DNA of 64,000 bases from Alphaproteobacteria bacterium (lineage in GTDB: Bacteria > Pseudomonadota > Alphaproteobacteria > CAAHEQ01 > UBA3637), in assembly GCA_017960645.1 (NCBI GenBank), contig JAGCYU010000013.1:47901-111900 (forward strand), in the 5' to 3' direction. The notes below the pieces were generated by a model. It was given only the letters and a program-made list of their open reading frames with translations, was not told the origin of the DNA and ran no database searches. Of this stretch, positions 1,689 to 64,000 are shown piece by piece. Position numbers and translations under genes: made by a program. Positions within the stretch are counted from its first letter, which is position 1. Each line of letters opens with the position of its first letter.

Positions 1689-1765
1689 CGGAGTGTAGCG
1701 CAGCCTGGTAGCGCACTTGTCTGGGGGGCAAGTGGTCATGGGTTCAAATCCCGTCACTCCGACCA
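1689..1765 (+). tRNA. tRNA-Pro (anticodon GGG)
   Basis: The 77-base cloverleaf has CGGAGTG paired with CACTCCG, D arm AGCGCAGCCTGGTAGCG, anticodon stem CTTGT/GCAAG around CTGGGGG, T arm ATGGG-TTCAAAT-CCCGT and an encoded CCA. The last bases TCCGACCA recur at the right end of each of the next four cassettes, making this gene the anchor of a cassette array. Its transcription terminator is supplied by the first cassette. Confidence 0.97.
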
Positions 1766-1938
1766 CTAAACACAAGTCGTCTGAAAGGGCGACTTTTTCT
1801 TTTGTTTCCAAGCACTTATAAAAGTTCGAATGTTGAAAGCCCAAAAACAGCCATTTTTGCAAATTTACGAACTCTTGAAGCAAAAAATCCTTATTTTTCA
1901 ATACCCATCCCTTGGGAATCTAAAACTTCAATCCCAGG
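1766..1938 (+). repeat. Cassette left-end module, copy C1
   Basis: The order is: terminator hairpin AAGTCG...CGACTT plus T run (1774-1799); AGTTCGAATGTT; an inverted partner AAATTTACGAACT about 32 bases later; and a small hairpin CTTGGGA...TCCCAGG at the end. The same order occurs in the other six complete cassettes, with compensating base changes in the terminator stem. Confidence 0.85.
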
Positions 1939-1941
1939 AAT

Positions 1942-2511
1942 TTAGAATTTTATTTCCTTATTATTGATTGCTTTTAAAAGGTCATTTTTAAAATCATTAT
2001 GAGTACTATTTTTCAATATCAAAAAATGAAAATTATTATTGTTTAGAATCTGCTGATACGATTTTTTACGGTTGTCATCAATATAGGTATCTTTTCCACC
2101 CTCTAACCAATAAATGGGCGTTTTTGTTATTTTCTTATATGAGATGTTATAAGGTAAATCTCCATTGATACTGATAACACTGGATAATTCCATTTCTAGA
2201 CCAATGTGAACAGCCATACCACCACCTTGTGAATGTCCAATAAGGATGATATCTTTTGTATTTGCATGAAGATTGCTTAGTTGTTCTTTGATGTATTGCA
2301 AGGAATAAGTATAATCTTTAACAACTGCATCACGTCGTCCATCTTTTTCGAACTTATTAAACCATCTATATTTATCAATTTTATCAGGATGTTTAAAAGG
2401 AGCATTAAAAGTAATTAAATCAGCATCACAGAACTCGATAACTTCATGCATTAAATCACCATAGGCATTTTTATCAGATCCAGAACCATGTAAGAAGACT
2501 AATTTTTTCAT
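1942..2511 (-). CDS. Alpha/beta-hydrolase, small esterase-like
   Basis: A 189-residue protein of the serine alpha/beta-hydrolase fold. It starts MKKLVFLHGSGSDKNAYGDL with the oxyanion-loop HGSGS, has the nucleophile elbow GHSQGGG near residue 93, a likely acid at GGKDTYID and a likely histidine in STHNDF near the C-terminus. The length fits the phospholipase/carboxylesterase group; the substrate cannot be told. No signal peptide, so cytoplasmic. It is the second gene of a two-gene unit, 8 bases after the isochorismatase-like gene, both reading toward the tRNA within cassette C1. Confidence 0.8.
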   Translation of the reverse strand: MKKLVFLHGSGSDKNAYGDLMHEVIEFCDADLITFNAPFKHPDKIDKYRWFNKFEKDGRRDAVVKDYTYSLQYIKEQLSNLHANTKDIILIGHSQGGGMAVHIGLEMELSSVISINGDLPYNISYKKITKTPIYWLEGGKDTYIDDNRKKSYQQILNNNNFHFLILKNSTHNDFKNDLLKAINNKEIKF

Positions 2512-2519
2512 TTGTCATC

Positions 2520-2960
2520 CTATTTAATATTGTGTTTACCGATATTACGAGTGAGAAGCTTTAATCCCATTTTATGGAAAATTTGATTTTCGCTAAAACA
2601 ATATTTTTTTAACACTATTGGACGAATTCCTTTTTCAATCAAATCCAATGCAGTCTTATAAATACAAGCATCTGTATCAAAACCACATAAATGGATTTCA
2701 TCAAAATCTTTCATTTTGAAGTGATAAGAAGAATAACCTTTCTTTTTAAAGGTGAACGCTTTTGTGGCAGGAGTAAAAGCAAGCGCTTCATCATCATAAC
2801 CTGTCCAAGGCATCAATTTTAATAAAGGACTTCCTTTATTTTGAAATTGAGAAACAAAGACATATTCATATTGATTTTGAAGTTTTTCAATTTTTTGAGG
2901 AAGTTTACTTCTTCCCACAGCGGATTTTTGAACATCAATAATCAATAAAGCTTTTTTCAT
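2520..2960 (-). CDS. Isochorismatase-like cysteine hydrolase
   Basis: A 146-residue protein of the isochorismatase/nicotinamidase superfamily. Visible catalytic elements are the aspartate in LLIIDVQKSA near residue 9, a lysine in the FKKKGYS region, and the nucleophile cysteine in GFDTDACIYKTALD near residue 97. It is shorter than typical family members (170-210 residues), mainly in the first half, but the catalytic triad seems present. The substrate is unknown. It is first in a two-gene unit with the esterase and has a good Shine-Dalgarno (AAAAGGAGA) and its own sigma70-type promoter at the right end of cassette C1. Confidence 0.8.
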   Translation of the reverse strand: MKKALLIIDVQKSAVGRSKLPQKIEKLQNQYEYVFVSQFQNKGSPLLKLMPWTGYDDEALAFTPATKAFTFKKKGYSSYHFKMKDFDEIHLCGFDTDACIYKTALDLIEKGIRPIVLKKYCFSENQIFHKMGLKLLTRNIGKHNIK

Positions 2961-2981
2961 TTGCTCAGTCTCCTTTTGGTT

Positions 2982-3010
2982 ATTTTACATTATTCAAAAA
3001 TCTATGTCAA
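2982..3010 (-). promoter_or_regulatory. Promoter of the C1 gene pair
   Basis: TTGACA, 17 bases, TAAAAT on the minus strand, followed by an AAGGAG Shine-Dalgarno before the ATG at 2960. It lies just inside the right end of the cassette. Confidence 0.8.
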
Positions 3011-3051
3011 TATAAAATACTGGCTCGTGAATTGCGCATTCATTCCGACCA

Positions 3052-3224
3052 CTAAACACAAGTCGTCTGAAAGGGCGACTTTTTCTTTATTTTACAAACA
3101 CTTGTGCGAGTTCGCATGTTGAAGTATCAAAAACAGCCATTTTCTTAGATCTACGAACTTTTAAGTCAAAAAATCCTTATTTTTCAATACTCGTCCTCTG
3201 GGAGCCTCAACCCACCATCCCAGA
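3052..3224 (+). repeat. Cassette left-end module, copy C2
   Basis: Nearly identical to copy C4 (5798-5970) and related to C1 and C3. Contains the AAGTCGTC...GGCGACTT terminator, GCGAGTTCGCATGTT, the inverse ATCTACGAACTT, and TCTGGGA...TCCCAGA with a 14-base loop. Confidence 0.85.
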
Positions 3225-3233
3225 AAATAGTGC

Positions 3234-3262
3234 TTGATTTCATCCTTTTTATTATGTAAAAT
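3234..3262 (+). promoter_or_regulatory. Cassette C2 promoter
   Basis: TTGATT, 17 bases, TAAAAT. The same -35/-10 pair and spacing are kept in cassettes C3, D1 and D2. Confidence 0.8.
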
Positions 3263-3293
3263 GGCTTCAATATTTTTATTGGAAGGAATTACT

Positions 3294-4406
3294 ATGAAAA
3301 AGGTAAATTGGAAAAGCATTATTGGTTGGACAGTTGCTGCATTAGTCGCAGGTTTTATAGTATATTCTAACATGCAAGAGCAAAAGGCTTTACAGGAATC
3401 TGGGAAAAAAGTTGTATACGCAGTATTACCTTTAAGCGGACAGATAGCCAAGTATGGTAAGGATATGCAGAAAACAATGGAGATTTATGTCCAAAAGAAT
3501 AACCCTCCATTTCAAATTAAATTTTTGGATTCTGCGGGTGTTTCTGCAACAGCAGTTTCTGCTTTACAACAAGCCGCTTTATATGATAACAACCCGATTG
3601 TTATTTCATTGCCAACTCATATCAGTTCTGCACTTGCTCCCATTGTTGAGCAAAAAAATGGATTTCTGTTTGGAATCGCAACGCTTGCAGTCACTACGGA
3701 TTCAAAAAGTTTCCAACGTATGAGTCGTTGTGCAAAAGATGAAATTGGACCGTTAGGTGATTATATCTTAAAACATTTTAAGAAAATAGCCGTTGCTTAT
3801 ACACAAGATGACCACGGATTAAAAGATTATTCATACTTAAAAGATGCTTTAAAAGGTAGTAATGTTCAGATTGTTAGAGAAGTTATTGTAACGAGCACAG
3901 AAAGAGATGTAAGAAATGAAGCAGTTAAATTAATTTCATCAAAACCGGAAGCAGTTGTTGTTTTAGGACAAGCAATACAATCCTATCTCAACATTATCAA
4001 AGAATTAAAAAGACAAGATTATCAAGGACAAATTATGGCAGAGTGTAGTTTTACCAACCCACCTACATTTAATGCTTTGAATGGATATACTGAAAATGTT
4101 ATTTCATCTACTATGTCTGTTGAAATTGATATGGCCCAACCAAAAAGAATTGAGGAGTTAAGAACAGAGCTGAACAAGGATAATGTTCCGACATATTTCT
4201 TAACCGTTGAGGCTATTGATACACTTGATTTAATTGCTTACACTATCAATAATAATTTACCATTTTCACAAAAGACGTATGAACAAATGAAAAAATGGAA
4301 TGGAATTGCTGGGGATGTTATCTTTACTGGAAATGGTGATGCAAGTGTCTCATCATATCAATTAGCTAAAGTAAAAAACGGAAAGATTGTACCTGTTGAA
4401 AAATAG
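3294..4406 (+). CDS. Membrane-anchored periplasmic binding protein (LivK/ANF-receptor type), paralogue 1
   Basis: A 370-residue protein with the type-1 periplasmic-binding fold used by branched-chain amino-acid and related ABC uptake systems. Residues 1-30 (MKKVNWKSIIGWTVAALVAG...) form an uncleaved-looking membrane anchor: no signal-peptidase site or lipobox is obvious. Then come VVYAVLPLSGQIAKYGKDMQ (first strand and helix), KKIAVAYTQDDHGLKDYSYL and a C-terminal GDVIFTGNG segment typical of the family. The ATG at 3294 was chosen for its GGAAGGAATTACT Shine-Dalgarno; the frame is open further upstream. No permease or ATPase lies nearby, so the partner is unknown. Paralogues are in C3, D1 and D2. 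Confidence 0.82.
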   Translation: MKKVNWKSIIGWTVAALVAGFIVYSNMQEQKALQESGKKVVYAVLPLSGQIAKYGKDMQKTMEIYVQKNNPPFQIKFLDSAGVSATAVSALQQAALYDNNPIVISLPTHISSALAPIVEQKNGFLFGIATLAVTTDSKSFQRMSRCAKDEIGPLGDYILKHFKKIAVAYTQDDHGLKDYSYLKDALKGSNVQIVREVIVTSTERDVRNEAVKLISSKPEAVVVLGQAIQSYLNIIKELKRQDYQGQIMAECSFTNPPTFNALNGYTENVISSTMSVEIDMAQPKRIEELRTELNKDNVPTYFLTVEAIDTLDLIAYTINNNLPFSQKTYEQMKKWNGIAGDVIFTGNGDASVSSYQLAKVKNGKIVPVEK

Positions 4407-4438
4407 CTGGCTCGTGATTTGTGAGCTGATTCCGACCA

Positions 4439-4611
4439 CTAAACACAAGTCGTCTGAAAGGGCGACTTTTTCTTTTGTTTCCAAGCACTTATAAAAGTTC
4501 GAATGTTGAAAGCCCAAAAACAGCCATTTTTGCAAATTTACGAACTCTGAAAGCAAAAAATCCTTTAAAATCAATACTCATCCTCTGGGAGCCTCAACCC
4601 ACCATCCCAGA
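4439..4611 (+). repeat. Cassette left-end module, copy C3
   Basis: The first ~120 bases match copy C1 almost exactly, including AAAAGTTCGAATGTTGAAAG, while the distal hairpin (CTCTGGGAG...CATCCCAG) matches C2. This chimaeric pattern points to recombination between cassettes. Confidence 0.85.
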
Positions 4612-4620
4612 AAATAGGGC

Positions 4621-4649
4621 TTGATTTCATCCTACTTTTTATGTAAAAT
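4621..4649 (+). promoter_or_regulatory. Cassette C3 promoter
   Basis: TTGATT, 17 bases, TAAAAT; same architecture as cassette C2. Confidence 0.8.
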
Positions 4650-4679
4650 AACTTCAATATTTTGATGGAAGGAATTACT

Positions 4680-5765
4680 ATGAAAAAGCTAAATTGGAAA
4701 AGTATTGTTGGTTGGACAATCGCAGCATTGGTGGCTGGATTTATCGTCTATTCCAACATCCAAAAACAAAAGACATCCAATGAAAAGCCAAATATTTTGT
4801 TCATGGAATATCAAACTGGATTGGGAACAGCCAGTGATGCAATGAAAAAAATTATTGCTGCTTTCAAAGAAAACAATCCTAATCTTTCATTTAACTGGAT
4901 TGCCGTGGATACAGGATACAATCCTTCAACAGCTGTTTCCATCTTACAACAGCAATTAGCACTTCATAAAATTGATGCCGTTGTTTCTTTTGGATTTTTA
5001 ATCAACTCTGTTGTTTTACCTATAACACAAAAGGAAAATATACCAACAATAGCCCTTTATAACGCAGGTATGGAGAAGTTTGACGAATATAAAAATTATC
5101 AATCATTCAGCCACAGCCAAGAAGATTCCATAAAACCCATTGTTGATTTTATCAATAAAAATGTTCGTAAAGTAGCGGTCTTATATATTAATGATGTTTA
5201 TGGGCCAGTTGCATTGAATTATATTCAAAAAAACTATAAAGGTGGAGAAATTGTTTTTAAGGAAAGTTTTGAACCCAAAGACTTGGATACAAGAATTTTA
5301 GTTTATAAAGCACTTCAAGAAAATCCAGAGGCCATTTTAGTTTTAGGCTATGGCGCAGGATACAATAACATTTTAAGAATGTTAAAATCTAATGAATATA
5401 AAGGATATATCATTGCAGATTTAACTACTGGAAGCAGTTATCAAGAATATGTGCAAAATCCAGAGGTTTATAGGGATGTTTATTTTTCAGCCCCTAAAAT
5501 TAATACAGAAAGTGCTTCATATCGTAAGTTAATGACGACAAAAAATCATAATGAATTTTTACCAATCAATATGGTTTTATATGATGCATTTGATTATATT
5601 CAAAAAGCAGTTGATAACGGAAAAGGTCTAACACAAAATGACTTCTTAAAACAAGGTGAAAATCAGGGGATTGTTGAAACTGTGTTCCTGCCAAACGGAA
5701 GAAGTCAGGTAAAAATGGTTTTATCAAAATGGAACGATAGCAAGATTGTGCCGGTAGAGGAATGA
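4680..5765 (+). CDS. Membrane-anchored periplasmic binding protein, paralogue 2
   Basis: A 361-residue paralogue of the C2 protein. The anchor MKKLNWKSIVGWTIAALVAG is nearly identical, but the ligand-binding part is very different (NILFMEYQTGLGTASDAMKK, then RKVAVLYINDVYGPVAL and AILVLGYGAGYNNILRMLK). The C-terminus SKIVPVEE again resembles the other copies. The start at 4680 follows GGAAGGAATTACT as in the other copies. Conserved ends and a divergent middle suggest different ligands on a shared export/anchor module; the ligand is not identifiable from sequence alone. Confidence 0.82.
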   Translation: MKKLNWKSIVGWTIAALVAGFIVYSNIQKQKTSNEKPNILFMEYQTGLGTASDAMKKIIAAFKENNPNLSFNWIAVDTGYNPSTAVSILQQQLALHKIDAVVSFGFLINSVVLPITQKENIPTIALYNAGMEKFDEYKNYQSFSHSQEDSIKPIVDFINKNVRKVAVLYINDVYGPVALNYIQKNYKGGEIVFKESFEPKDLDTRILVYKALQENPEAILVLGYGAGYNNILRMLKSNEYKGYIIADLTTGSSYQEYVQNPEVYRDVYFSAPKINTESASYRKLMTTKNHNEFLPINMVLYDAFDYIQKAVDNGKGLTQNDFLKQGENQGIVETVFLPNGRSQVKMVLSKWNDSKIVPVEE

Positions 5766-5797
5766 TGAGTTCGTGATTTGTGAGTTGATTCCGACCA

Positions 5798-5970
5798 CTA
5801 AATACAAGTCGTCTGAAAGGGCGACTTTTTCTTTATTTTACAAACACTTGTGCGAGTTCGCATGTTGAAGTATCAAAAACAGCCATTTTCTTAGATTTAC
5901 GAACTTTTAAGTCAAAAAATCCTTATTTTTCAATACTCGTCCTCTGGGAACCTAAAACCACTATCCCAGA
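5798..5970 (+). repeat. Cassette left-end module, copy C4
   Basis: Almost identical to copy C2 through the CGAACTT element, then CTCTGGGAACC...TATCCCAGA. It is followed by a different promoter from the binding-protein cassettes. Confidence 0.85.
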
Positions 5971-6010
5971 AAAATTGATCTAAAAATTTAATTTATTTTG
6001 CAAAAATATA

Positions 6011-6063
6011 TTGACTTAACAGTAGTTTTTTTGTTTAATGAAACTGGTTACGAATGTGTAACC
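6011..6063 (+). promoter_or_regulatory. Cassette C4 promoter with small inverted repeat
   Basis: TTGACT, 17 bases, TTTAAT (6011-6039), followed by GGTTAC-N6-GTAACC at 6046-6063 in the predicted 5' leader, 19 bases before the start codon. The inverted repeat could be an operator or a small RNA hairpin. Confidence 0.65.
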
Positions 6064-6081
6064 CCAAAAAAGGAGATAAAC

Positions 6082-6825
6082 ATGGCTATATTTGAACATT
6101 TAAAAAATGCAAAAAAAGAAACAGAAATGAGAGATTCTACAGAAGATACTCCTATATCACAGGAAGACTTATTGGCTTTCAAAGAAGCGCATCCAGAAAA
6201 AGTTTTTCAAGTTAAAAAGATTCCAATTCCTGTATCACTTAAAAAAGTGAGCGGACAAGAAAAAGCTGTTACGACTGTATTGGCAAGAGATGGAAGACTC
6301 ATTGAAGAAACAATTCAAACTGCACAAGACGGATTTGCTATCGATACAAGAACCTGCATTAATGGTGCAAAAGATCAATATGCCAAAAAACCGGCAAAGG
6401 CAGGACCAAATGATTATACTGTGGATGATGGTAGGACTTTTGAAGACATGAAGCCGGGTGAAACTGCTGCTGCGCATACCGTCGGTGGTAAAGTGAGAAA
6501 TGCTTTTGTTGCAGAAAAGGATATGTGGATTGCAACATCATGGGGTGTACCTCAGCGCATTGGTAGGGGTGGTTTAATTACTTTTATGGGAAATGAAGCC
6601 ATTGGGAATAACAACCCTTGCGATTTGGTCATTCAAGAAGGTGATAAATCAGGTAAAACACCTTTAACTACGTATGCTTATAACATTGCAAAAGAATACG
6701 AAGCAACCTTTGGTAAAAAACCTGAAGGTGGTGTTAAATTATTTTTGGATGTTGCTTTAGAAGAAGATAAGAAAAATCCTTATCAGATGCAAATCATTTC
6801 CAGAGGAAATGTATTGGGCGGCTAA
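6082..6825 (+). CDS. Unrecognised cytoplasmic protein, 247 aa (cassette C4)
   Basis: I do not recognise this protein. The ATG at 6082 is preceded by AAAAAAGGAGATAAAC, so I use it instead of a longer upstream frame that overlaps the promoter. The N-terminal ~70 residues are charged and may be helical (MAIFEHLKNAKKETEMRD). From residue ~95 a more ordered domain follows, with GGKVRNAFVAEKDMWIATSW, RIGRGGLITFMGNEAIGNNN and a C-terminal GGVKLFLDVAL strand. There is no signal peptide or membrane segment. It is the only gene of cassette C4, has its own promoter and terminator, and lacks the binding-protein anchor. Confidence 0.6.
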   Translation: MAIFEHLKNAKKETEMRDSTEDTPISQEDLLAFKEAHPEKVFQVKKIPIPVSLKKVSGQEKAVTTVLARDGRLIEETIQTAQDGFAIDTRTCINGAKDQYAKKPAKAGPNDYTVDDGRTFEDMKPGETAAAHTVGGKVRNAFVAEKDMWIATSWGVPQRIGRGGLITFMGNEAIGNNNPCDLVIQEGDKSGKTPLTTYAYNIAKEYEATFGKKPEGGVKLFLDVALEEDKKNPYQMQIISRGNVLGG

Positions 6826-6836
6826 TTGAAAAATTT

Positions 6837-6870
6837 AACCTCATTTCGTGGTGAAATGAGGTTTTTTTTC
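6837..6870 (+). terminator. Terminator of the C4 gene
   Basis: AACCTCATTTC-gtg-GTGAAATGAGGTT followed by a run of T. Placed 12 bases after the stop codon, inside the cassette. Confidence 0.9.
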
Positions 6871-6980
6871 AGATCTTGAGTTCGTGATTTGTGAGTTGAT
6901 TCCGACCAATGGAAAAATCCTGTCTATCAGGGCTTTTTTATTGGTGGCAATGGTGGGCGAATAAAGCCATACTATGTGGT

Positions 6981-7399: not shown

Positions 7400-7882
7400 T
7401 CATTCCATGCATAAAGCATAATTAGAAATCTTTTCCCGCAGTGAGTTGGAGCCTCGTGTTTGGGTATTGTTTACCCCCACAGCACCTGAAGATAGAATAA
7501 CATAATAAGAACGCGATTCATCCACAGGCAAAGTTGTCCAAACTGTTGTGCTATCAATGCCTTTTGCATTAGCGCACGCTCCTGTAGCCGCATTCCATCC
7601 GCTGGGGATTCCTGGGCAAAGATTGGCAAAACTGACCATGTTGCGGCCAATAGATTTGCACCAAATGAGGGCGCTAAACCAATTCATCTTTTGAGGACTT
7701 TGACAAAAATTAAGGCCGTTGCAATGGGCGGCATCACAACCTTCATCTGTGGCATTGCGGGCTGTGATCCAGGTTCCGCCGACTGATTGACAGCCGGCTT
7801 CAGTCCATTCAATTGTGGTTTCTGCATGTGCAGCAGTTGCCACAGTTAATCCTAAAACCAATACAAATATATTTTTCTTCAT
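7400..7882 (-). CDS. Secreted cysteine-containing protein, C-type-lectin-like module (copy 1)
   Basis: A 160-residue protein with a signal peptide (MKKNIFVLVLGLTVATAAHA, cleavage after AHA). The mature part has paired cysteines and the motif FCQSPQKMNWFSALIWCKSIG, then CPGI, VWTTLP, SYYVILSSG and a terminal YALC. Similar motifs (WSAENFCDALG, WSAFTWCEAIG) recur in the region 17-21.6 kb. The arrangement resembles C-type-lectin-like folds, but this is inferred from motif order only. The gene is a tandem duplicate of 8122-8577. The start has a GGGGGAAAG Shine-Dalgarno. Likely periplasmic or surface-exposed; function unknown. Confidence 0.72.
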   Translation of the reverse strand: MKKNIFVLVLGLTVATAAHAETTIEWTEAGCQSVGGTWITARNATDEGCDAAHCNGLNFCQSPQKMNWFSALIWCKSIGRNMVSFANLCPGIPSGWNAATGACANAKGIDSTTVWTTLPVDESRSYYVILSSGAVGVNNTQTRGSNSLREKISNYALCME

Positions 7883-8121: not shown

Positions 8122-8577
8122 TTATTGTTCACATACAGCCCATGTACTAGCAGAGGACCGAGCGGCATTATTGTGACTATGTCCATTTACAAGCTCCACT
8201 GTAAAGGCATTTTGGCTCCCGGAAGGTAAATTTGTCCATCCCCAGGATACACCACGGCTTTTTATATTCGTACAAGGACCATTATCATTGGCAGCCGTTG
8301 GAATTCCAGGACATAAATGCTCAAAGCTAACAAGTTTATGTCCAATAGATTTGCACCAAATGAGGGCGCTAAACCAATTCATCTTTTGGGGACTTTGACA
8401 AAAATTAAGGCCGTTGCAATGGGCGGCATCACAGCCGGAATCTGTTGGACTGTGAGCTGTGATCCATGTACCTCCAACCGATTCACACCCGGCTTTTGTC
8501 CATTCAATTGTGGTTTCTGCATGTGCAGCAGTTGCAAATGTCAAACTTAAAGCCAATACAAATATATTTTTCTTCAT
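8122..8577 (-). CDS. Secreted cysteine-containing protein, C-type-lectin-like module (copy 2)
   Basis: A 151-residue duplicate of the gene at 7400-7882. The signal peptide and the core (ETTIEWTKAGCESVGGTWI, CDAAHCNGLNFCQSPQKMNW) are nearly identical, while the C-terminal ~60 residues have diverged (VSWGWTNLP, FTVELVNGHSHNN, WAVCEQ). Both coding and upstream DNA were duplicated, giving a repeat unit of about 0.7 kb. Conserved front and variable back parallels the lectin-like ligand-binding end changing most, which is an inference. No enzymatic motif is seen. Confidence 0.72.
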   Translation of the reverse strand: MKKNIFVLALSLTFATAAHAETTIEWTKAGCESVGGTWITAHSPTDSGCDAAHCNGLNFCQSPQKMNWFSALIWCKSIGHKLVSFEHLCPGIPTAANDNGPCTNIKSRGVSWGWTNLPSGSQNAFTVELVNGHSHNNAARSSASTWAVCEQ

Positions 8578-9495: not shown

Positions 9496-10100
9496 CGAAT
9501 ATTACGGTTATCAAGGGAGATTTGCCTGCTCATTTACAATGGCCAAAAATGATTGCGGTAGATACGGAAACAACCGGATTAGATGTTGTCCATGACAGGT
9601 TGTGCTTGGTGCAAATTGGGGATGGCAAGGGCAATATGTGGCTTGTTCAAATTTTACCCGGGAAAAAATATCCTAATTTAAAAAAATTATTAACCAATCC
9701 GAAAATTTTAAAAATATTTCACTTTGCACGGTTTGACGTAGCAAAATTAAAGGTGGATTTGCACATTGATGTCACCCCTGTTTATTGTACCAAAATTGCT
9801 CATAAGCTTGTGTGGCCAGATAAAAAACATTCGCTAAAAAACCTGTGTGAAGATATGTTGGGTGTTGTGTTAGACAAAGAGCAACAATGTTCTGATTGGA
9901 CACGTAAAGAATTATCGGAAGAGCAAATTCGTTATGCTGCCAATGATGTAACATATTTACACGCATTAAAGGCTTTGTTGGATAAGGAATTAAAAAAGAA
10001 AAAGCGCGCGAATTTAGCGGCGGAATGTTTCCGTTTTGTGAATACGCGGGCAGAATTGGATATATTGGGCTATGAAGAACCCGATTTATTTCATCATTGA
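9492..10100 (+). CDS. RNase D-like 3'-5' exonuclease
   Basis: A 202-residue DEDD-family exonuclease, as found in many alphaproteobacteria as a short RNase D without HRDC domains. The three Exo motifs are present: Exo I VDTETTGLD (residues ~22-30), Exo II HFARFDVAKL (~77-86), Exo III YAANDVTYL (Y-x3-D, ~148-156). It would trim RNA 3' ends in the cytoplasm using two metal ions. It overlaps the upstream gene by 4 bases and is 12 bases from kdsD, so it is translated within the lpt operon. Substrate specificity cannot be read. Confidence 0.9.
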   Translation: MTNITVIKGDLPAHLQWPKMIAVDTETTGLDVVHDRLCLVQIGDGKGNMWLVQILPGKKYPNLKKLLTNPKILKIFHFARFDVAKLKVDLHIDVTPVYCTKIAHKLVWPDKKHSLKNLCEDMLGVVLDKEQQCSDWTRKELSEEQIRYAANDVTYLHALKALLDKELKKKKRANLAAECFRFVNTRAELDILGYEEPDLFHH

Positions 10101-52590: not shown

Positions 52591-53352
52591 ATGAAAATTT
52601 ATGGATATTGCCGTTGTTCCACAGACAAGCAAACCGTAGCACATCAACGCTTGGAAATTAAGCAATATGCGCGGCACCAGAATTTACATATTGATCGCTG
52701 GGTGGAAGAAACTATTTCCAGTCGTAAACCTTTACAAAAACGTGCGCTGGGAGATTTATTAAAAAAATTGCAAGCGGACGATATTTTAATTACATCGGAA
52801 CTATCACGCCTGGGGCGTAGTTTATTGGAAGTCATGAGCATTTTACAATACTGCTTGGAAAAAAACTGTCAAGTATGGACGATTAAAGAACATTACCGGT
52901 TGGGAGCAGACATTCAAAGTAAAGTGTTGGCTTTTGCTTTTGGACTATCGGCCGAAATAGAACGCCAACTGATATCGGACAGAACACGTTCTTCTTTGGC
53001 AAGCTTGAAAAAAGGAGGCCGAAAATTGGGCCGACCTTTTGGCGCTAAAAACAGATTATTAAAATTATCCAAAAATCGCACCAAGCTAAACGAATTGATG
53101 GCACAGGGCTTACAAAAAAAAGAAATAGCCGAGCGTTTAAATGTGGACAAAATGACGCTTTATCGGTTTTTAAAACGCCAAGAAGAGATGGATGCCCAAG
53201 AACGCGCCTTGTTGCTGGAACAAGAACGACAAGCGCAATTAATAGAACCGCTGTTGCCTTTTGATGCACCAAGTCCTGCATCTCAACCATCTGATGAACC
53301 CGAGCTGTTTTCACAGGAGGACCTAAACTCCAACTCAAAATCAACCCCATAA
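52591..53352 (+). CDS. Serine recombinase (resolvase/invertase family)
   Basis: A 253-residue site-specific recombinase. The catalytic serine is in GYCRCSTDKQT (residue ~10), with SELSRLGRSLLEV carrying the active-site arginines and IERQLISDRTR closing the catalytic domain. A helix-turn-helix (LNELMAQGLQKKEIAERLNV) follows at ~165-195, and an unusual ~60-residue proline/glutamine-rich tail ends it. The size and HTH place it with invertases and resolvases of the Hin/Mpi kind. No paired inverted repeats with a switchable segment are obvious in the window. It lies just upstream of tRNA-Phe but points away from its array. Confidence 0.9.
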   Translation: MKIYGYCRCSTDKQTVAHQRLEIKQYARHQNLHIDRWVEETISSRKPLQKRALGDLLKKLQADDILITSELSRLGRSLLEVMSILQYCLEKNCQVWTIKEHYRLGADIQSKVLAFAFGLSAEIERQLISDRTRSSLASLKKGGRKLGRPFGAKNRLLKLSKNRTKLNELMAQGLQKKEIAERLNVDKMTLYRFLKRQEEMDAQERALLLEQERQAQLIEPLLPFDAPSPASQPSDEPELFSQEDLNSNSKSTP

Positions 53353-55077: not shown

Positions 55078-55207
55078 GAACGCTGTTTTTCGTGGAATGG
55101 GATTTATTCGTGCGGGGGGCGCTCACCCTAAAAGCCCACCCAAAGGCGTTGCTTTCACTAAAGTTCCAGCCGAACCAGTGGTCCATTCACCTCATCCCTC
55201 ACAACAA

Positions 55208-55243
55208 ATCAAAAAGGCCAGCCTAACGGCTGCCCCTTTGCTT
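55208..55243 (-). terminator. Native-looking tRNA-fMet terminator displaced to the far end of the array
   Basis: On the minus strand, right after the last CCAACCA: AAAGGGGCAGCCGTTAGGCTGGCCTTTTTG hairpin. It differs from the AGTCGTC terminators of the three cassettes, as expected for the original terminator of tRNA-fMet. Confidence 0.8.
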
Positions 55244-55274
55244 TATGGTTGGCTCCAGTGCGCAATTCACGAAC

Positions 55275-56171
55275 TTATTGCTTCAAATAACAGCCGTTCA
55301 TTATCCATTCTCGATCAGAGCATTGTTGGCATTCATTTGGGGATACATCATAGAATGGAGCGTCTGTTTGACATGATCTACACTCACCCCATTTTGTTCT
55401 CAAAGAGTTGATGTTACATTTCAACCTACACAGGCCTTTATTCCACTCACGATTAGGACAATAAGCGCATTCCGTTTTTGAGGCAAAAATATCTCGGTTA
55501 ATTTGACAGGAAAGGCATTCATGATTGCCGATGAATTTATTTTTTTCAGAATGACATTTTTGTTTAAATTCTGGTGTCGGAGTCAAAAGAACTTTCGATA
55601 AGTCAATCTCGTTATTATATTCGTACCATGGATTAGTGATAATAACAGCGGGAATACCAACAACTGTATTAAAAATATCAAACACTACCCCAAAACCAAA
55701 CCCCACCAATGTACCTACCACAGTTGTCACCGGTGTTAAAGGTACGAGGGCCCATGCGGCTCCTCCATTTTCTTGTGCAAACGTATAAGGTCCTGTAAAG
55801 CCTTTCCAAAATCCGAGACCAGTCAAAGAGGCTGTTTCTATTGGTGGCATCAAATACCAGCCAGATTTGTTTGGATGGTCTAAGTCTAGCAATTCCAAAG
55901 CCCATTTATCATCAGTTAAATGGCTGGAAAGTGTTATTTGCTTGCTTTCAAAACCTTCTTTTTCCAGCACAATTTTCAAATCTTTAAAGGATCTATTAAC
56001 GGTGAGCTTTTGAACAGTATTTAAATGTTCCTCTTGCTGTAGTTGTCCATCAACCTTAAAATTAATCCCTGGAGTATGTAAAATTTGAATTTCTTGTTTA
56101 GATTCGTGAAAATTTGGCACATAACAACCACATAATCCTAAATACAAAAAATAAACCAAAAACTTTTTCAT
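55275..56171 (-). CDS. Lipoprotein with C-terminal cysteine-rich (zinc-ribbon-like) region
   Basis: I do not recognise this 298-residue protein. The start KKFLVYFLYLGLCGCYVPNF contains an LGLCGC lipobox, so it is likely lipid-anchored. The central part includes a glycine-rich hydrophobic stretch (PVTTVVGTLVGFGFGVVFDI) that could insert in a membrane, and a strand-rich N-terminal part (INFKVDGQLQQEEHLNTVQK). The last ~90 residues carry CxxC-type clusters (CLSCQINRD, CAYCPNR, CRSCQTD, CQQCSDR). Promoter (56195-56223) and AGGAGACTGT are in the cassette. Confidence 0.65.
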   Translation of the reverse strand: MKKFLVYFLYLGLCGCYVPNFHESKQEIQILHTPGINFKVDGQLQQEEHLNTVQKLTVNRSFKDLKIVLEKEGFESKQITLSSHLTDDKWALELLDLDHPNKSGWYLMPPIETASLTGLGFWKGFTGPYTFAQENGGAAWALVPLTPVTTVVGTLVGFGFGVVFDIFNTVVGIPAVIITNPWYEYNNEIDLSKVLLTPTPEFKQKCHSEKNKFIGNHECLSCQINRDIFASKTECAYCPNREWNKGLCRLKCNINSLRTKWGECRSCQTDAPFYDVSPNECQQCSDREWIMNGCYLKQ

Positions 56172-56194
56172 ACAGTCTCCTATTCATCACAGGT

Positions 56195-56223
56195 AGTTTA
56201 CATAAAGGTTTGTGAAAAAGCAA
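56195..56223 (-). promoter_or_regulatory. Cassette D3 promoter
   Basis: TTGCTT, 17 bases, TAAACT on the minus strand; a variant of the binding-protein cassette promoters. Confidence 0.7.
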
Positions 56224-56242
56224 GCTGTTTTTTTGAAGTAAT

Positions 56243-56415
56243 TCTGGGATTCGTATTTTGTGCTCCCAGAGGACGGGCATTGGAAACAAAGGAAATTTTG
56301 TCACAAGAGTTCGTAAATTCAAGAAAATAGCCGATTTTGACACTTTAACATTCGAACTCGCACAAGCGCTTGCAAACAAAAGAAAAAGTCGTCATTTCTG
56401 ACGACTTGTGTTTTT
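56243..56415 (-). repeat. Cassette left-end module, copy D3
   Basis: Minus-strand order: GTCGTCA-GAAA-TGACGAC terminator, CGAGTTCGAATGTT, GAATTTACGAACTCTT, TCTGGGAGC...ATCCCAGA. The terminator stem has exchanged paired bases relative to other copies, preserving the hairpin. Confidence 0.85.
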
Positions 56416-56446
56416 TGGTTGGGCAGGGTGCGCAATTCACGAACTC

Positions 56447-57553
56447 TTATTTTTCTACTGGAACGAACTCACCATTTTTGTATTGAACCAAAACGAATGG
56501 ATATAAACTGTGACCATTTCCTGGGAAGATAACTTCTCCGGAAATTCCATTCCATTTACCCATTTTTGTATATGTTTCTTGTGTCAATGGTAAATTATTG
56601 TCCAAAGAATACTGAATTAAATCCAAAGTATCCCAAATCTGAATGGGAAAAGTATAAGCCCTCAACCCCACACGAGCCAAAGTATCTTTGACTTGTTGAT
56701 TTTTTTCGTCCAGTTTTGCATTTGTATCAGTAATAGCCGTGACGGCAATGATACCTTCTGCGTCTGCTTTCAAAGTTCTGACGACATGTGGGTTTGCAAA
56801 GGCATAATCTGCTATAATTGTCCCTTTATAACCTTGTTCTCGCAATGATTTGATAATGTTGGTATAACCGATGGTGGCTATTCCTAAAATACAAATAGCA
56901 TCCGGTTCGTCTTTCATGAGTTTAAGTGCTTCAATTCTGGTATCAAGGCTTTTGGGTGCTAACGGCATAACCTGTGTAATCTTTTGGTCAGAGCGAATAT
57001 TCTTTTCCAAGTATTTTGCTTCCAATAAACCGAAATCATCCTCTATGTATACAACTGCAATCTTTTTAATGGGGGCTGTTTCCAGATATTTTTTGATAGG
57101 AGACATTACTTCATTTAATTCACCTGTCAACAACTGATAGTTTTTATACTTTTCATCTATGGAAGTGATGTAATTTCCGAAAATAAAAGAGTTCTTTGGT
57201 GCGCCTGACAAAATAGCCGAAGTTGCAGAAGTTAAAATGGATAATACAATCGGCTCTTTTTCATTTAATGTCTTGGATAAAAGAGATGTCAAAGCAGTTG
57301 ATGTTTGTGATTGGCTATCTATAAAAATCACATTAAAGGATTTGTCTTTGGATGCCATGTGGGCTTGAATGGCTTTTTGGGCTTCTTGTCCCACATACGA
57401 TAATCCACCAGTTAAAGGCAACACAGCATACACATTTTTTTTGCCCGTTTCTTGTAACGCCTTTTGTTCTTGCATGTTGGTATATACGATGAATCCAGCC
57501 ACCAATGCTGCAATTCCCCAGCCAACAATACTTTTCCAATTTATCTTTTTCAT
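56447..57553 (-). CDS. Membrane-anchored periplasmic binding protein, paralogue 3
   Basis: A 368-residue paralogue of the C2/C3 proteins at another tRNA. The anchor MKKINWKSIVGWGIAALVAG is shared; the ligand-binding part differs (VYAVLPLTGGLSYVGQEAQK, KKIAVVYIEDDFGLLEAKYL, AICILGIATIGYTNIIKSLR). It ends VQYKNGEFVPVEK like the others. The ATG at 57553 follows GAAAGGAATTATT; a longer upstream frame is not used. The partner transporter is unknown. Confidence 0.82.
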   Translation of the reverse strand: MKKINWKSIVGWGIAALVAGFIVYTNMQEQKALQETGKKNVYAVLPLTGGLSYVGQEAQKAIQAHMASKDKSFNVIFIDSQSQTSTALTSLLSKTLNEKEPIVLSILTSATSAILSGAPKNSFIFGNYITSIDEKYKNYQLLTGELNEVMSPIKKYLETAPIKKIAVVYIEDDFGLLEAKYLEKNIRSDQKITQVMPLAPKSLDTRIEALKLMKDEPDAICILGIATIGYTNIIKSLREQGYKGTIIADYAFANPHVVRTLKADAEGIIAVTAITDTNAKLDEKNQQVKDTLARVGLRAYTFPIQIWDTLDLIQYSLDNNLPLTQETYTKMGKWNGISGEVIFPGNGHSLYPFVLVQYKNGEFVPVEK

Positions 57554-57584
57554 AATAATTCCTTTCATCAAAAATCTTGAGGTT

Positions 57585-57613
57585 ATTTTATATAAGAAAT
57601 AGGACGAAATCAA
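57585..57613 (-). promoter_or_regulatory. Cassette D2 promoter
   Basis: TTGATT, 17 bases, TAAAAT on the minus strand. Confidence 0.8.
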
Positions 57614-57622
57614 GCTCTATTT

Positions 57623-57796
57623 TCTGGGGTAGCAATTTTGAGATCCCAGAGAGTTTGTATTGATTTTGAAGGAAATTTTGTGCCAAAAGTTCGTAAATCT
57701 AGAAAAATAGTCAATTTTGACGATTGGACATTCGAACTCGTATAAGCTCTTATAAACAAAAGAAAAAGTCGTCCTTTCAGACGACTCTAAGTTTAA
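57623..57796 (-). repeat. Cassette left-end module, copy D2
   Basis: AGTCGTCTGAAAGGACGACTTTTTC terminator (shown in two parts: AGTCGTC and GGACGACTT), ACGAGTTCGAATGTCC, GATTTACGAACTTTTGG, CTCTGGGATC...CCCCAGA. The most diverged copy. Confidence 0.82.
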
Positions 57797-57827
57797 TGGT
57801 TGGACACAGTGCGCAATTCACGAACCA

Positions 57828-58936
57828 TTATTCTTCCACAGGAATGACCTTGCCATTTTTGACTTTTGCCAAAATAAATGGATATGCGGAATTACCAATA
57901 CTTGGGAATAGAACTGTTCCGGAAACACCAGCATATTTTTTCATGTCCATAAAACTTTGTTGGCTAAATGGAATTTGTTTTTCCACCATATCATTAATAA
58001 TATTAACCATGTCGTAACCTTCAATAGAACTAAATGAAGGATACATACCATTTGATAGTGCAAATTTGCGGTATGCTTGTGCTTCGGGTGTTCTCGGTTC
58101 ATCCAAATGTGGTTCTAATGTGACGAAAATGACATCTTCCGCATACTTTCCCAAAGATTCTAATACGAATTTCTGCGCAAATGACATATCTGAGACAATT
58201 TGTCCTTTAAATCCTTGTTCTCTTAATTCCTGAAACAGTTTCAAAAAAGGTGCTGTCGCTGTGGCAGAAATGAATATAGTATCCACATCCGGATTTTTGA
58301 GTAAAAATTTGGTAGCAATTTCACGGATTGAAAATGTATTTGGTTCAAAATCCATCGTGACAAAAGGCACGTTGTTTTTCTGCATTACATTTTGAAATAC
58401 TTTCAATCCATTTGTCCCATACATATCATAAGAATATAGAAGTCCTATTTTCTTGTTTTGTTTGCCAAATAGTTTGAAGCTAGTTCTGTTGTAGCACCAG
58501 AGGCCACAGAAAAACGATGATAGTTATCAAATTTTTTCAAATCATCTAATTCCACAGTTCCCCCAGCCATTACAAATCCGGGTTTAGTTGCTGGTATAGT
58601 TGCAAAGGAAATAATAGCACCCCAAGCAACTACCAATGGATTGTTATCATTCAAGGTCGCTTGCTTTAACATTGTGACGGCTTTTGTGGGATTAAACTCA
58701 TCATCCAAAAAAACAAGGTTAATTTTAGGGTTCTTCAAATTGTTATAGGCGTGTGTTAAGGCCTTTTGATAATCGTTACCAGATTGTGCTATTGGTCCAG
58801 ATAAAGGAATAAGAATATAAACATTTTTCTTATCAGTTGGTACTTTCTGTTGTTGGATATTTGTATAAAGAATAAATCCAGCTACCAATGTTGCAATTCC
58901 CCAACCAATAATACCTTTCCAATTTATCTTTTTCAT
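57828..58936 (-). pseudogene. Membrane-anchored periplasmic binding protein, paralogue 4, frameshifted
   Basis: The gene reads MKKINWKGIIGWGIATLVAG ... SVASGATTELASNYLANKTRK, then a stop at 58445; the frame continues in another phase as YSYDMYGTNGLKVFQNVMQK to 57828 (end GKVIPVEE). The change is one missing base near 58455-58462, in an A-rich run (adding an A restores NKTKKIGLLYSYDMYG). The combined protein would be about 369 residues and match paralogues 1-3. Either a recent inactivation, phase variation, or a sequence error. It carries the intact promoter and GAAAGGAACTATT Shine-Dalgarno. Confidence 0.8.
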
Positions 58937-58969
58937 AATAGTTCCTTTCTAGCGAAAAATATTGAAATC

Positions 58970-58998
58970 ATTTTACATAAAAAGCAGGATGAAATCAA
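58970..58998 (-). promoter_or_regulatory. Cassette D1 promoter
   Basis: TTGATT, 17 bases, TAAAAT on the minus strand, as in D2, C2 and C3. Confidence 0.8.
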
Positions 58999-59007
58999 GC
59001 CCTATTT

Positions 59008-59180
59008 TCTGGGATGGTGGTTTTAGGCTCCCAAGGGACGATTATTGAAAACAAAGGATTTTTTGTTTCAAAAGTTCGTAAATCTAAGAAAATGGCTGTT
59101 TTTTGAGTTGAAACATTCGAACTCGCACAAGCGCTTGCAAACAAAAGAAAAAGTCGCCTTTTCAGACGACTTGTGATTTT
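59008..59180 (-). repeat. Cassette left-end module, copy D1
   Basis: CACAAGTCGTCTGAAAAGGC-type terminator directly after the tRNA CCA, AAGCGCTTGTGCGAGTTCG, GATTTACGAACTTTTG, TTGGGAGCC...CATCCCAGA. Confidence 0.85.
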
Positions 59181-59258
59181 TGGTTGCGGGGATGGGATTT
59201 GAACCACATGACCTCCAGGTTATGAGCCTGGCAAGCTACCGGACTGCTCTACCCCGCG
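59181..59258 (-). tRNA. tRNA-fMet (initiator, anticodon CAT), with an extra base in the T stem
   Basis: CGCGGGG/CCCCGCA with the C1-A72 mismatch of initiators, D arm GAGC...GCTT, anticodon CTCATAA, encoded CCA. The T stem is ATGTGG/CCCAT, six bases against five, so one T is bulged, an unusual feature. The 29-31 anticodon-stem pairs are AGG/CCT, not the classical GGG/CCC. It is the anchor of the D cassette array. Confidence 0.9.
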
Positions 59259-59401
59259 ATAGCGGTGATTATTATACCTTTATTTTGATATTTTGTCAAC
59301 CCCATTTTTATTTTTTATTTTTATTCTAAAAAAATGCTTGCTTTTTTTAAATAATGCGATTACATTAGCTTTTGTAATTGATTCTTACAAAAGGAGATAC
59401 T

Positions 59402-63484: not shown

Positions 63485-63560
<76 letters not shown>

Positions 63561-63671
63561 TTTAATACAGCCACCTTTAAATCGGTGGCTTTTTCTTTTG
63601 TTTTCATACACTTGTGTGAGTTCGATAAAGTCAATTTTAAAAATGGTCAAATTTTTATCATTATCGAACTC
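63561..63671 (+). repeat. Cassette left-end module, copy Lys
   Basis: Terminator stem differs completely in sequence from the others but has the same place. GAGTTCGATAA-N28-TTATCGAACTC is a perfect 11-base inverted repeat; in the other copies only AGTTCG/CGAACT is symmetric. Confidence 0.8.
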
Positions 63672-63685
63672 TCATAATTATTTCC

Positions 63686-63714
63686 TTGCAAAAAAGGCGT
63701 CAATCAGATACAAT
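63686..63714 (+). promoter_or_regulatory. Promoter of the Nudix gene
   Basis: TTGCAA, 17 bases, TACAAT. Confidence 0.8.
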
Positions 63715-63740
63715 GAATTACAGGTAAAAAGGAGCAGAGA

Positions 63741-64000
63741 ATGGTAGAATTTTTTGATCTTTTAGATGAGCAAGGCAATAAAACTGGACAAACTAAAGCT
63801 CGTTCAGAGGTACACAGAGATGGCGATTGGCATAAAGCTGTGCATATATGGATTGCCAGCGATCAAGATGAAATACTTTTACAAAAAAGAAGTCCTAACA
63901 AAGACAGTTATCCAAATATGTGGGATATTTCTAGTGCAGGACATTTAACAGCAGGGGACGATTCTTTGTCAGGTGCGGTTAGAGAAATAAAAGAGGAATT
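63741..64000 (+). CDS. Nudix hydrolase, N-terminal part (runs off right edge)
   Basis: A frame open to the window edge: MVEFFDLLDEQGNKTGQTKA, then DWHKAVHIWIASDQDEILLQ, KRSPNKDSYPNMWDISSAGH and GAVREIKEE, the last being the start of a Nudix box. The N-terminal part resembles isopentenyl-diphosphate isomerase-like Nudix proteins. Strong AAAAGGAGCAGAGA Shine-Dalgarno. It is the cargo of the tRNA-Lys cassette. Confidence 0.85.
   Translation, partial: MVEFFDLLDEQGNKTGQTKARSEVHRDGDWHKAVHIWIASDQDEILLQKRSPNKDSYPNMWDISSAGHLTAGDDSLSGAVREIKEE

Follow-up and report, generated by a model that had tools for sequence, protein, structure and literature searches.

The gene cassettes of integrons have constant ends and are stacked at one entry site, and the staphylococcal and enterococcal cassette chromosomes (SCC/ECC) measure tens of kb. 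In Methylophilaceae, the final 20 bp of tRNA-Lys-CTT recur within an additive island at a tRNA gene (PMC10872708; this and the other papers given by PMC number are quoted from extracts). In an alphaproteobacterial genome of 1.14 Mb in 32 contigs (the source genome), a stretch of 64,000 nucleotides (nt) on contig C3 (C3:47901-111900; the window, Table 1) carries two arrays of small cassettes with one or two genes each, placed directly behind tRNA-Pro-GGG and tRNA-fMet. They are read here, with a probability of about 0.8 on the strength of sequence comparisons, as non-autonomous cassettes that would be mobilised in trans by tRNA-specific large serine recombinases (LSRs), which related genomes encode on sibling elements. 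The comparison set consists of draft genomes, one per species, in which the order and family samples coincide (the identical 43 genomes in both).

The units of both arrays stand head-to-tail, and each starts immediately 3' of a CCA. The left end consists of a terminator hairpin, followed by TTTTTCTTT or a similar sequence, a spacer and an inverted repeat of about 51 nt (AGTTCG...CGAACT), and the distance from the terminator to the second arm is 105 or 106 nt in 15 of 15 seed left ends from the source genome. The first bases after the CCA vary (CTAAAC, AAAATC, TTAAAC, TCAAAT, TTTAAT, TGTCTT, AAGTGA), and the left ends inside the window are 68-94% identical to one another. The right end has 29 nt, in which a GTTCG-type arm such as GTTCGTGAATTGCGCA is joined to the final bases of the tRNA; the Pro right-end pattern gave 23 matches in the 43 family genomes, against 0 for a reversed-pattern control. 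The search for complete units demanded the arm at position -29, and this rule was retested on junctions defined solely by the left end that follows. Among 47 distinct internal junctions, 32 have GYYC (Y, pyrimidine) exactly at -29, and the other 20 offsets between -20 and -40 hold it at most once each. The length of the tRNA copy was taken from 22 internal junctions with their own tRNA in the fetched stretch, compared whatever their last bases; the run identical with the tRNA is 6 nt in eight, 8 nt in eight, 10-11 nt in five and 19 nt in one, and the minimum of 6 nt is thus reached in 22 of 22.

These borders bear out an earlier sequence-only reading of the window, which had placed four units behind tRNA-Pro and three behind tRNA-fMet, starting right after the CCA and 1.1-1.4 kb long (1,111-1,387 nt at Pro and 1,170-1,384 nt at fMet in our measurement). 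Its right border of the fMet array, 55256, was off by 10 nt, the true one being 55246. The copy of 7-8 tRNA bases that it described stands at Pro, where 8 nt are copied, and falls at fMet, where the copy is 6 nt (GCAACCA in the tRNA, CCAACCA in the unit). It had also seen a distinct terminator beyond the final CCA, and at both loci a terminator-like hairpin that differs from the unit terminators does follow the last unit. The hairpin beyond the Pro array resembles, in an alignment judged by eye, the hairpin directly behind tRNA-Pro-GGG in the relative G006, and it probably represents the native terminator, now displaced.

A second kind of border lies between the tRNA and the array at some loci, where DNA resembling repetitive extragenic palindromic (REP) sequences is followed by a longer copy of the tRNA 3' end (L053:7452, L056:5212, L158:7137, L232:5017, L240:7725). 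In several arrays, a piece of about 100 nt ending in GATGTCGGAATT separates a right end from the next left end (L142, about 8379-8476 and 9510-9625; L143, about 930-1030; L149; L161). The idea that the arms are copies of the tRNA T-loop was rejected; Thr-GGT fits it and Gln-TTG does not.

The ends are found far beyond the two arrays of the window. Running a left-end profile on the fetched loci left 78 junctions, 29 directly at a tRNA and 49 internal, and 23 of the 78 belong to the source genome. There, ends stand behind Pro-GGG, fMet, Lys-CTT, Glu-CTC, Ser-GCT, Thr-GGT, elongator Met and Leu-CAA, and further ones behind Gln-TTG after an insert of about 150 nt, which makes at least nine tRNA genes altogether; relatives add loci at Pro-CGG, Tyr, Lys-TTT, Gln-CTG, Ser-CGA and Glu-TTC. 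Of 58 genomes, 29 have a match to the left-end DNA; 27 of these are among the 34 in the family (some matching weakly) and 2 among the 24 beyond it. With a stricter cut-off and a shorter left-end query, 27 of the 43 family genomes match. A member of another family of the class, G054 (L133), has the same layout with a cassette-like left end behind tRNA-Gln-CTG, and the match in G050, outside the family, looks spurious. A 19-base Pro junction pattern matched 26 stretches in named genomes, of which eight are Alphaproteobacteria metagenome-assembled genomes, several of them ruminant-derived; the remaining matches, in other taxa, are probably due to chance. Scans of the viral database IMG/VR with junction, right-end and left-end patterns returned 0, 0, 3 and 0 matches, the three being L249-L251.

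Between these constant ends the cargo changes. The 53 complete units span 567-2,462 nt, where L240 contains a second full left end and thus two cassettes, and L158 and L159 contain partial ones. BLASTP sorts their 67 open reading frames (ORFs; at least 55 amino acids, aa) into 52 groups, of which 45 have a single member and one, with three members, consists of a short antisense ORF within the left end. Pfam was run on the window cargo plus 10 other cargo proteins: the window holds an alpha/beta hydrolase with an isochorismatase-like gene, four Peripla_BP_6-like genes (one split) and two genes without a match, and the cargo beyond it includes Ham1, NUDIX, methyltransferase and sulfatase proteins, with a Pfam match absent in 5 of the 10. 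At tRNA-Pro-GGG, no cargo is common to any two of the six genomes with complete units (G000, G001, G003, G009, G012, G027). One cassette is 94% identical in DNA between the tRNA-Gln-CTG locus of G014 and the tRNA-Gln-TTG array of G027, which belong to different genera (g5 and g9), and it is present twice in the G027 array in copies that are 100% identical. In G001, two cassettes in separate Pro arrays have a common stretch of 82 aa at 97.6% identity. The Peripla_BP_6 family is amplified in the source genome (23 matches at E 1e-20; of the other 42 family genomes, only G018 with 15 and G009 with 4 have any); part of the copies are cassette cargo (window 3294-5765 and 56447-58936), and others form tandem clusters (contigs C14, C25, C28, C3, C9).

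No recombinase was found among the 67 ORFs by phmmer with 12 recombinases of the lineage (best E 0.02). The candidate enzyme was met in relatives, where the 43 family genomes were searched by a PF00239 census and with one LSR as query. Long LSR matches occur at 8 loci in 7 of the 43 genomes, one of them with a stop codon in the matched stretch, besides partial matches. The domains PF00239, PF07508 and PF13408 (Resolvase, Recombinase and Zn-ribbon) are complete in 7 of 7 proteins tested, and the nearest solved structure by sequence is the catalytic domain of the TP901-1 integrase (E 3e-6).

Several of these genes lie within units that have cassette ends. Forward LSRs precede an fMet-type right end in G029 (L301, with 59 nt from the LSR stop to the right end), a Gln right end with a next left end after it in G010 (L311), Gln-type right ends with a 905-aa gene in between in G063 (L302) and G027 (L303), a Pro right end after three genes in G002 (L309), and a Ser right end in G026 (L308); in G010, G002 and G026 the contig end cuts the LSR. 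Reversed LSRs abut the tRNA with their 3' end at Leu-CAA (L263 in G020, L299 in G026), Lys-CTT (L268 in G002) and Glu-TTC (L304 in G031), and in L263, L268 and L304 an inverted repeat of the cassette kind lies about 80 nt from the CCA, versus 57 nt in Pro unit 1. Another LSR of G029 ends at a Leu-type junction (L300). Part of the cargo of the LSR units is defence-like: PDC-S53 in G027, type III restriction-modification in G020 and a DNA methyltransferase in G026.

At Leu in G059 and G013, 3' pieces of an LSR occupy the place of the left end, with 92-94% identity to the G020 LSR over 48-51 aa; the G013 array runs from tRNA-Leu through a cassette and a right end (..GTACCA) to such a piece (94% over 48 aa). 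A general derivation of the cassette left end from the 3' end of an LSR was rejected, as it holds for few units only. A C-terminal LSR profile run against six-frame translations of the 78 left ends exceeded 8 bits in one (L178 at tRNA-Thr, 38.9 bits) and 5 bits in two, and block-shuffled controls exceeded 8 bits in 7 of 1,560 and 5 bits in 41 of 1,560. The few units that fit, L305 and L306 also among them, look like LSR elements with a replaced interior.

The LSRs sort with the sites beside which they stand. Arm sequence divides along tRNA lines: the family with GTTCGTGAATTGC is found at Pro, fMet and Glu-CTC, that with GTCCGTG at Gln and Tyr, a GTTCGATA-like one at Leu and one with GTCCGATA at Thr. 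The LSR groups match these families. The fMet and Pro enzymes, whose arms are the same, are 70% identical over 312 aa; identity within groups is 78-99% at Gln and 59-62% at Leu, and pairs across groups are 32-44% identical (among the five best per protein, several proteins being partial). Sorting by tRNA target and arm family is not expected of passenger genes.

The fMet locus is also the one at which synteny can be followed; that of the Pro locus is not usable because the neighbouring genes differ. The tRNA-fMet gene adjoins an ompA-like gene in G000, G002 and G020 and lies about 2.5 kb from it in G022, and three other fMet stretches showed no ompA-like gene. In G020, the order is ompA-like gene, tRNA-fMet, an insert of about 220 nt, a cassette unit of 2.5 kb, an fMet-type right end and a 429-aa gene, which we take to be transporter-like. 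In G029, an LSR unit and an fMet-type right end are followed by an ortholog of that gene (70% identity). Judged from these flanks, a single fMet site apparently exists in two states, with a cassette in G020 and an LSR unit in G029; its orthology rests on the right flank because the tRNA side of G029 lies beyond the contig end.

Mobilisation of the cassettes in trans would join several results. That idea had already been put forward from the window by itself, and the different cargo within the same borders, the cassette found in two genera and the recombinase-bearing sibling elements speak for it. The same reading had proposed that the units lack an integrase and stack at several tRNAs, which agrees with the phmmer result and with the nine or more tRNA genes of the source genome; the comparison of relatives at tRNA-Pro-GGG that it called for gave the same borders without common cargo. 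The recombinase on sibling elements is the part that goes beyond it. The integron-like single-gene arrays at many tRNAs of one genome would then quite likely represent a new class of gene cassettes, assembled and rearranged in trans by tRNA-specific LSRs of one family, each of which would read its own arm and the six terminal bases of the tRNA.

Serine recombinases exchange strands at a 2-bp core. In the proposed mechanism, the LSR would be expressed from a helper element, bind the arms and exchange strands within the last six tRNA bases. The crossover would likely lie at tRNA positions 71-72, and the other four bases, N73-C-C-A, would be carried by the element and so keep the tRNA whole; the minimum identity of 6 nt would be explained by such a core together with the element-borne bases. 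Incoming cassettes would be inserted immediately 3' of the tRNA and shift older ones and the native terminator outward, and insertion always beside the tRNA would give both the arrays and the displaced terminator. The terminator in the left end would keep transcription of the tRNA stopped. Since the six bases and the arms differ among tRNAs, each cassette may be bound to arrays at its own kind of tRNA.

Several points weigh against this account. Movement is presumed from comparison across species, in a collection with one draft genome for each. The source genome gave no LSR of the family, its sole match being 18 residues from an antisense tRNA, and long LSRs in only 7 of 43 genomes leave most arrays without a visible helper, of which drafts may miss some. 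The position of the LSR varies, being reversed at the left end at Leu, Lys and Glu and forward toward the right end at fMet, Gln, Pro and Ser. The Gln-type right end of G063 reads CAACCA and tRNA-Gln reads CAGCCA, the tRNA of G063 itself lying outside the fetched stretch. GYYC is missing at -29 in 15 of the 47 internal junctions: in L156 a like arm is shifted by two bases, the arm of L236 and of L238 is degenerate, about 10 have a longer tRNA copy, mostly after REP-like DNA, and two fall under none of these. Dyad symmetry is weak; the best centre near the border, between -6 and -5, has 0.356 matched against a mean of 0.269 (standard deviation 0.048), and five centres score higher elsewhere, three in the terminator and two near +58. 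The near-border centre coincides, as a weak signal, with the proposed crossover position.

Among the other explanations, the one that survives best, though unlikely, is that the arrays are relics in which homologous recombination between left ends of about 180 bp is the sole remaining source of reshuffling. That no LSR was found in the source genome, the similarity of the left ends in the window, the identical duplicate in G027 and the stretch common to two Pro cassettes of G001 would all suit it. However, homologous recombination does not account for exact 6-nt tRNA copies or for unrelated cargo between constant ends behind at least nine tRNAs, and the occurrence of one cassette in two genera at 94% identity points to transfer from genome to genome.

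It is slightly less probable again that the LSRs are mere passengers, captured like other cargo, and that some further enzyme moves everything. LSR units are rare, the place of the gene in the unit is variable, and some carry defence-like cargo, as such capture would have it. Their sorting by tRNA target and arm family speaks against it, and so does the frequent position of the gene at the border of the element, as in the integrative and conjugative elements (ICEs) with serine integrases (PMC4701971).

Mobilisation of the cassettes by a tyrosine integrase, the usual mover of tRNA-targeting islands, appears improbable. tRNA 3' ends are the classic targets of these enzymes (PMC4383910), in the source genome four tRNA genes are directly followed by a tyrosine integrase (540-593 aa), one of these enzymes lying beside the tRNA-Glu array (C18), and in G002 a 603-aa tyrosine integrase abuts the tRNA-Thr array across a longer tRNA copy (L178). 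Yet the four sit behind Lys-TTT, Met, Arg-ACG and Val-TAC, where the repeats are different and cassette left ends are absent, and G007, G012 and G014 have 6, 5 and 7 left-end matches versus 2, 2 and 1 PF00589 matches, those listed being Xer-like in length. By phmmer with the seven tyrosine recombinases of the source genome, no cargo ORF among the 67 in the 53 complete units resembles these enzymes. Tyrosine integrases were rejected as the movers after a census of 34 genomes and inspection of 20 regions, most being away from cassette ends; besides L178, the exceptions are L160 (G018), with terminator-only matches, and L161, with an Xer-like gene about 4 kb from Gln-type left ends. Insertion of a DDE-type transposon, for which the 6-nt copy could read as a target-site duplication, is very hard to credit, as the bases after the CCA are not conserved and the unit ends are, by eye, not terminal inverted repeats, although no search aimed at transposases was made.

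Table 1. Features of the two cassette arrays and of the Lys-CTT unit in the window (positions counted from its first nucleotide).
Feature	Position	Strand	Basis or remark
tRNA-Pro-GGG, target of first array, predicted attB	1689..1765	+	ARAGORN
Pro unit 1, 1,286 nt: left end, two minus-strand genes, right end 3023-3051	1766..3051	+	
Pro unit 1 cargo: alpha/beta hydrolase; isochorismatase-like	1942-2511; 2520-2960	- (both)	
Inverted-repeat module of about 51 nt, AGTTCG...CGAACT, Pro unit 1	1823..1873	+	direct reading; like module in other units
29-nt right end of Pro unit 1, GCTCGTGAATTGCGCATTCATTCCGACCA	3023..3051	+	
Pro unit 2, 1,387 nt: cargo 3294-4406 (+), periplasmic binding protein Peripla_BP_6; right end 4410-4438	3052..4438	+	
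Pro unit 3, 1,359 nt: cargo 4680-5765 (+), Peripla_BP_6; right end 5769-5797	4439..5797	+	
Pro unit 4, 1,111 nt: cargo 6082-6825 (+); right end 6880-6908	5798..6908	+	cargo: no Pfam/PADLOC match
Terminator-like hairpin beyond Pro array	6909..6950	+	like hairpin directly 3' of tRNA-Pro-GGG in G006
tRNA-fMet, target of second array	59181..59259	-	ARAGORN 59182-59259; last A of CCA at 59181
fMet unit 1, 1,384 nt: Peripla_BP_6 gene in two ORFs, 58936-58445 and 58424-57828; right end 57825-57797	57797..59180	-	
fMet unit 2, 1,381 nt: cargo 57553-56447; right end 56444-56416	56416..57796	-	
fMet unit 3, 1,170 nt: cargo 56171-55275; right end 55274-55246	55246..56415	-	cargo: no Pfam/PADLOC match
Terminator-like hairpin beyond fMet array	55205..55245	-	sequence
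tRNA-Lys-CTT (63485-63560); left end 63561-63670 starts unit running past window end	63561..64000	+	

The two ORFs of fMet unit 1 are probably one broken gene, and the cargo of fMet unit 2 is 41% identical to that of Pro unit 2. The cargo of the Lys-CTT unit is presumably a NUDIX hydrolase, from the likeness of its motif. Beyond the Pro array lie two similar secreted-type paralogs (7400-7882 and 8122-8577), with a third similar ORF on C14 beside tRNA-Arg-ACG. A small serine recombinase (Resolvase and HTH_7 domains) at 52591-53352 of the window ends about 100 nt before tRNA-Phe, and the source genome has five PF00239 matches, one near tRNA-Leu-GAG (C3:26250). In relatives, the surroundings of a separate group of LSRs (L252-L260) look like prophages; these genes lie near tRNA-Ala, -Met, -Lys and -Pro-TGG and are accompanied by a small conserved neighbour, which we take to be DUF2924-like. 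The fetched stretches around this group gave no left-end match, and it may be a further example of serine integrases located at tRNA genes.

If the reading of trans-mobilised cassettes is true, the arrays would be a second, independent solution to the task of integrons, with serine instead of tyrosine recombinases, and serine integrases could specialise on tRNA genes, which the Islander paper (2014) stated as not known. In small genomes, such as the present one of about 1.1 Mb, arrays at many tRNAs could rank among the chief ways of acquiring genes, and tRNA-specific LSRs with short, defined sites could serve as tools for genome insertion.

The system differs in a defining feature from each known kind tested, and its enzyme class is known; titles and the starts of abstracts listed by searches of the open-access literature, the part covered as opposed to subscription papers and preprints, contained no such system. 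The streptococcal ICEs with serine integrases are alike in the integrase gene at the border, one direct repeat inside the gene and repeats of 2-21 bp, and differ in being conjugative and inserted in protein genes such as rumA, with no cassette arrays described in the extract (PMC4701971). Tycheposons and additive islands likewise add cargo at tRNA genes. Tycheposons have 4-200 kb and a tyrosine recombinase, unlike the units of 0.6-2.5 kb without recombinase found here, and the additive island has 0.33-42 kb and 1-63 genes, with no rigid cassette ends in the extracted description (PMC10872708). Islander-type islands share the insertion at the tRNA 3' end, the restored gene, known tandem arrays and the tRNA fragment at the far end (6-19 nt in 22 of 22 internal junctions here); each island in the Islander database has its own tyrosine integrase (PMC4383910), in contrast to our units, which are without recombinase and most often hold 6-8 nt of the tRNA. 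SCCmec/ECC elements (CcrAB) likewise depend on large serine recombinases, insert where a conserved gene has its 3' end and carry variable cargo (PMC6222049); their target is rlmH instead of tRNA genes, and the NCBIfam profiles of CcrA/B/C match the four LSRs tested weakly (45-82 bits versus cut-offs of 700-900). Integrons are alike in their arrays of small, mostly single-gene units with constant ends, unrelated cargo and one entry site. The two Xer-type proteins of the source genome reach 129 and 119 bits versus a cut-off of 265 for integron integrases, and a short protein of C29 reaches 25. By eye, attC sites differ from the ends described here in the GTTCG...CGAAC orientation and the tRNA copy. 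In contrast to the integron, entry is at the 3' end of many tRNA genes, and the candidate enzyme is a serine recombinase carried on sibling elements.

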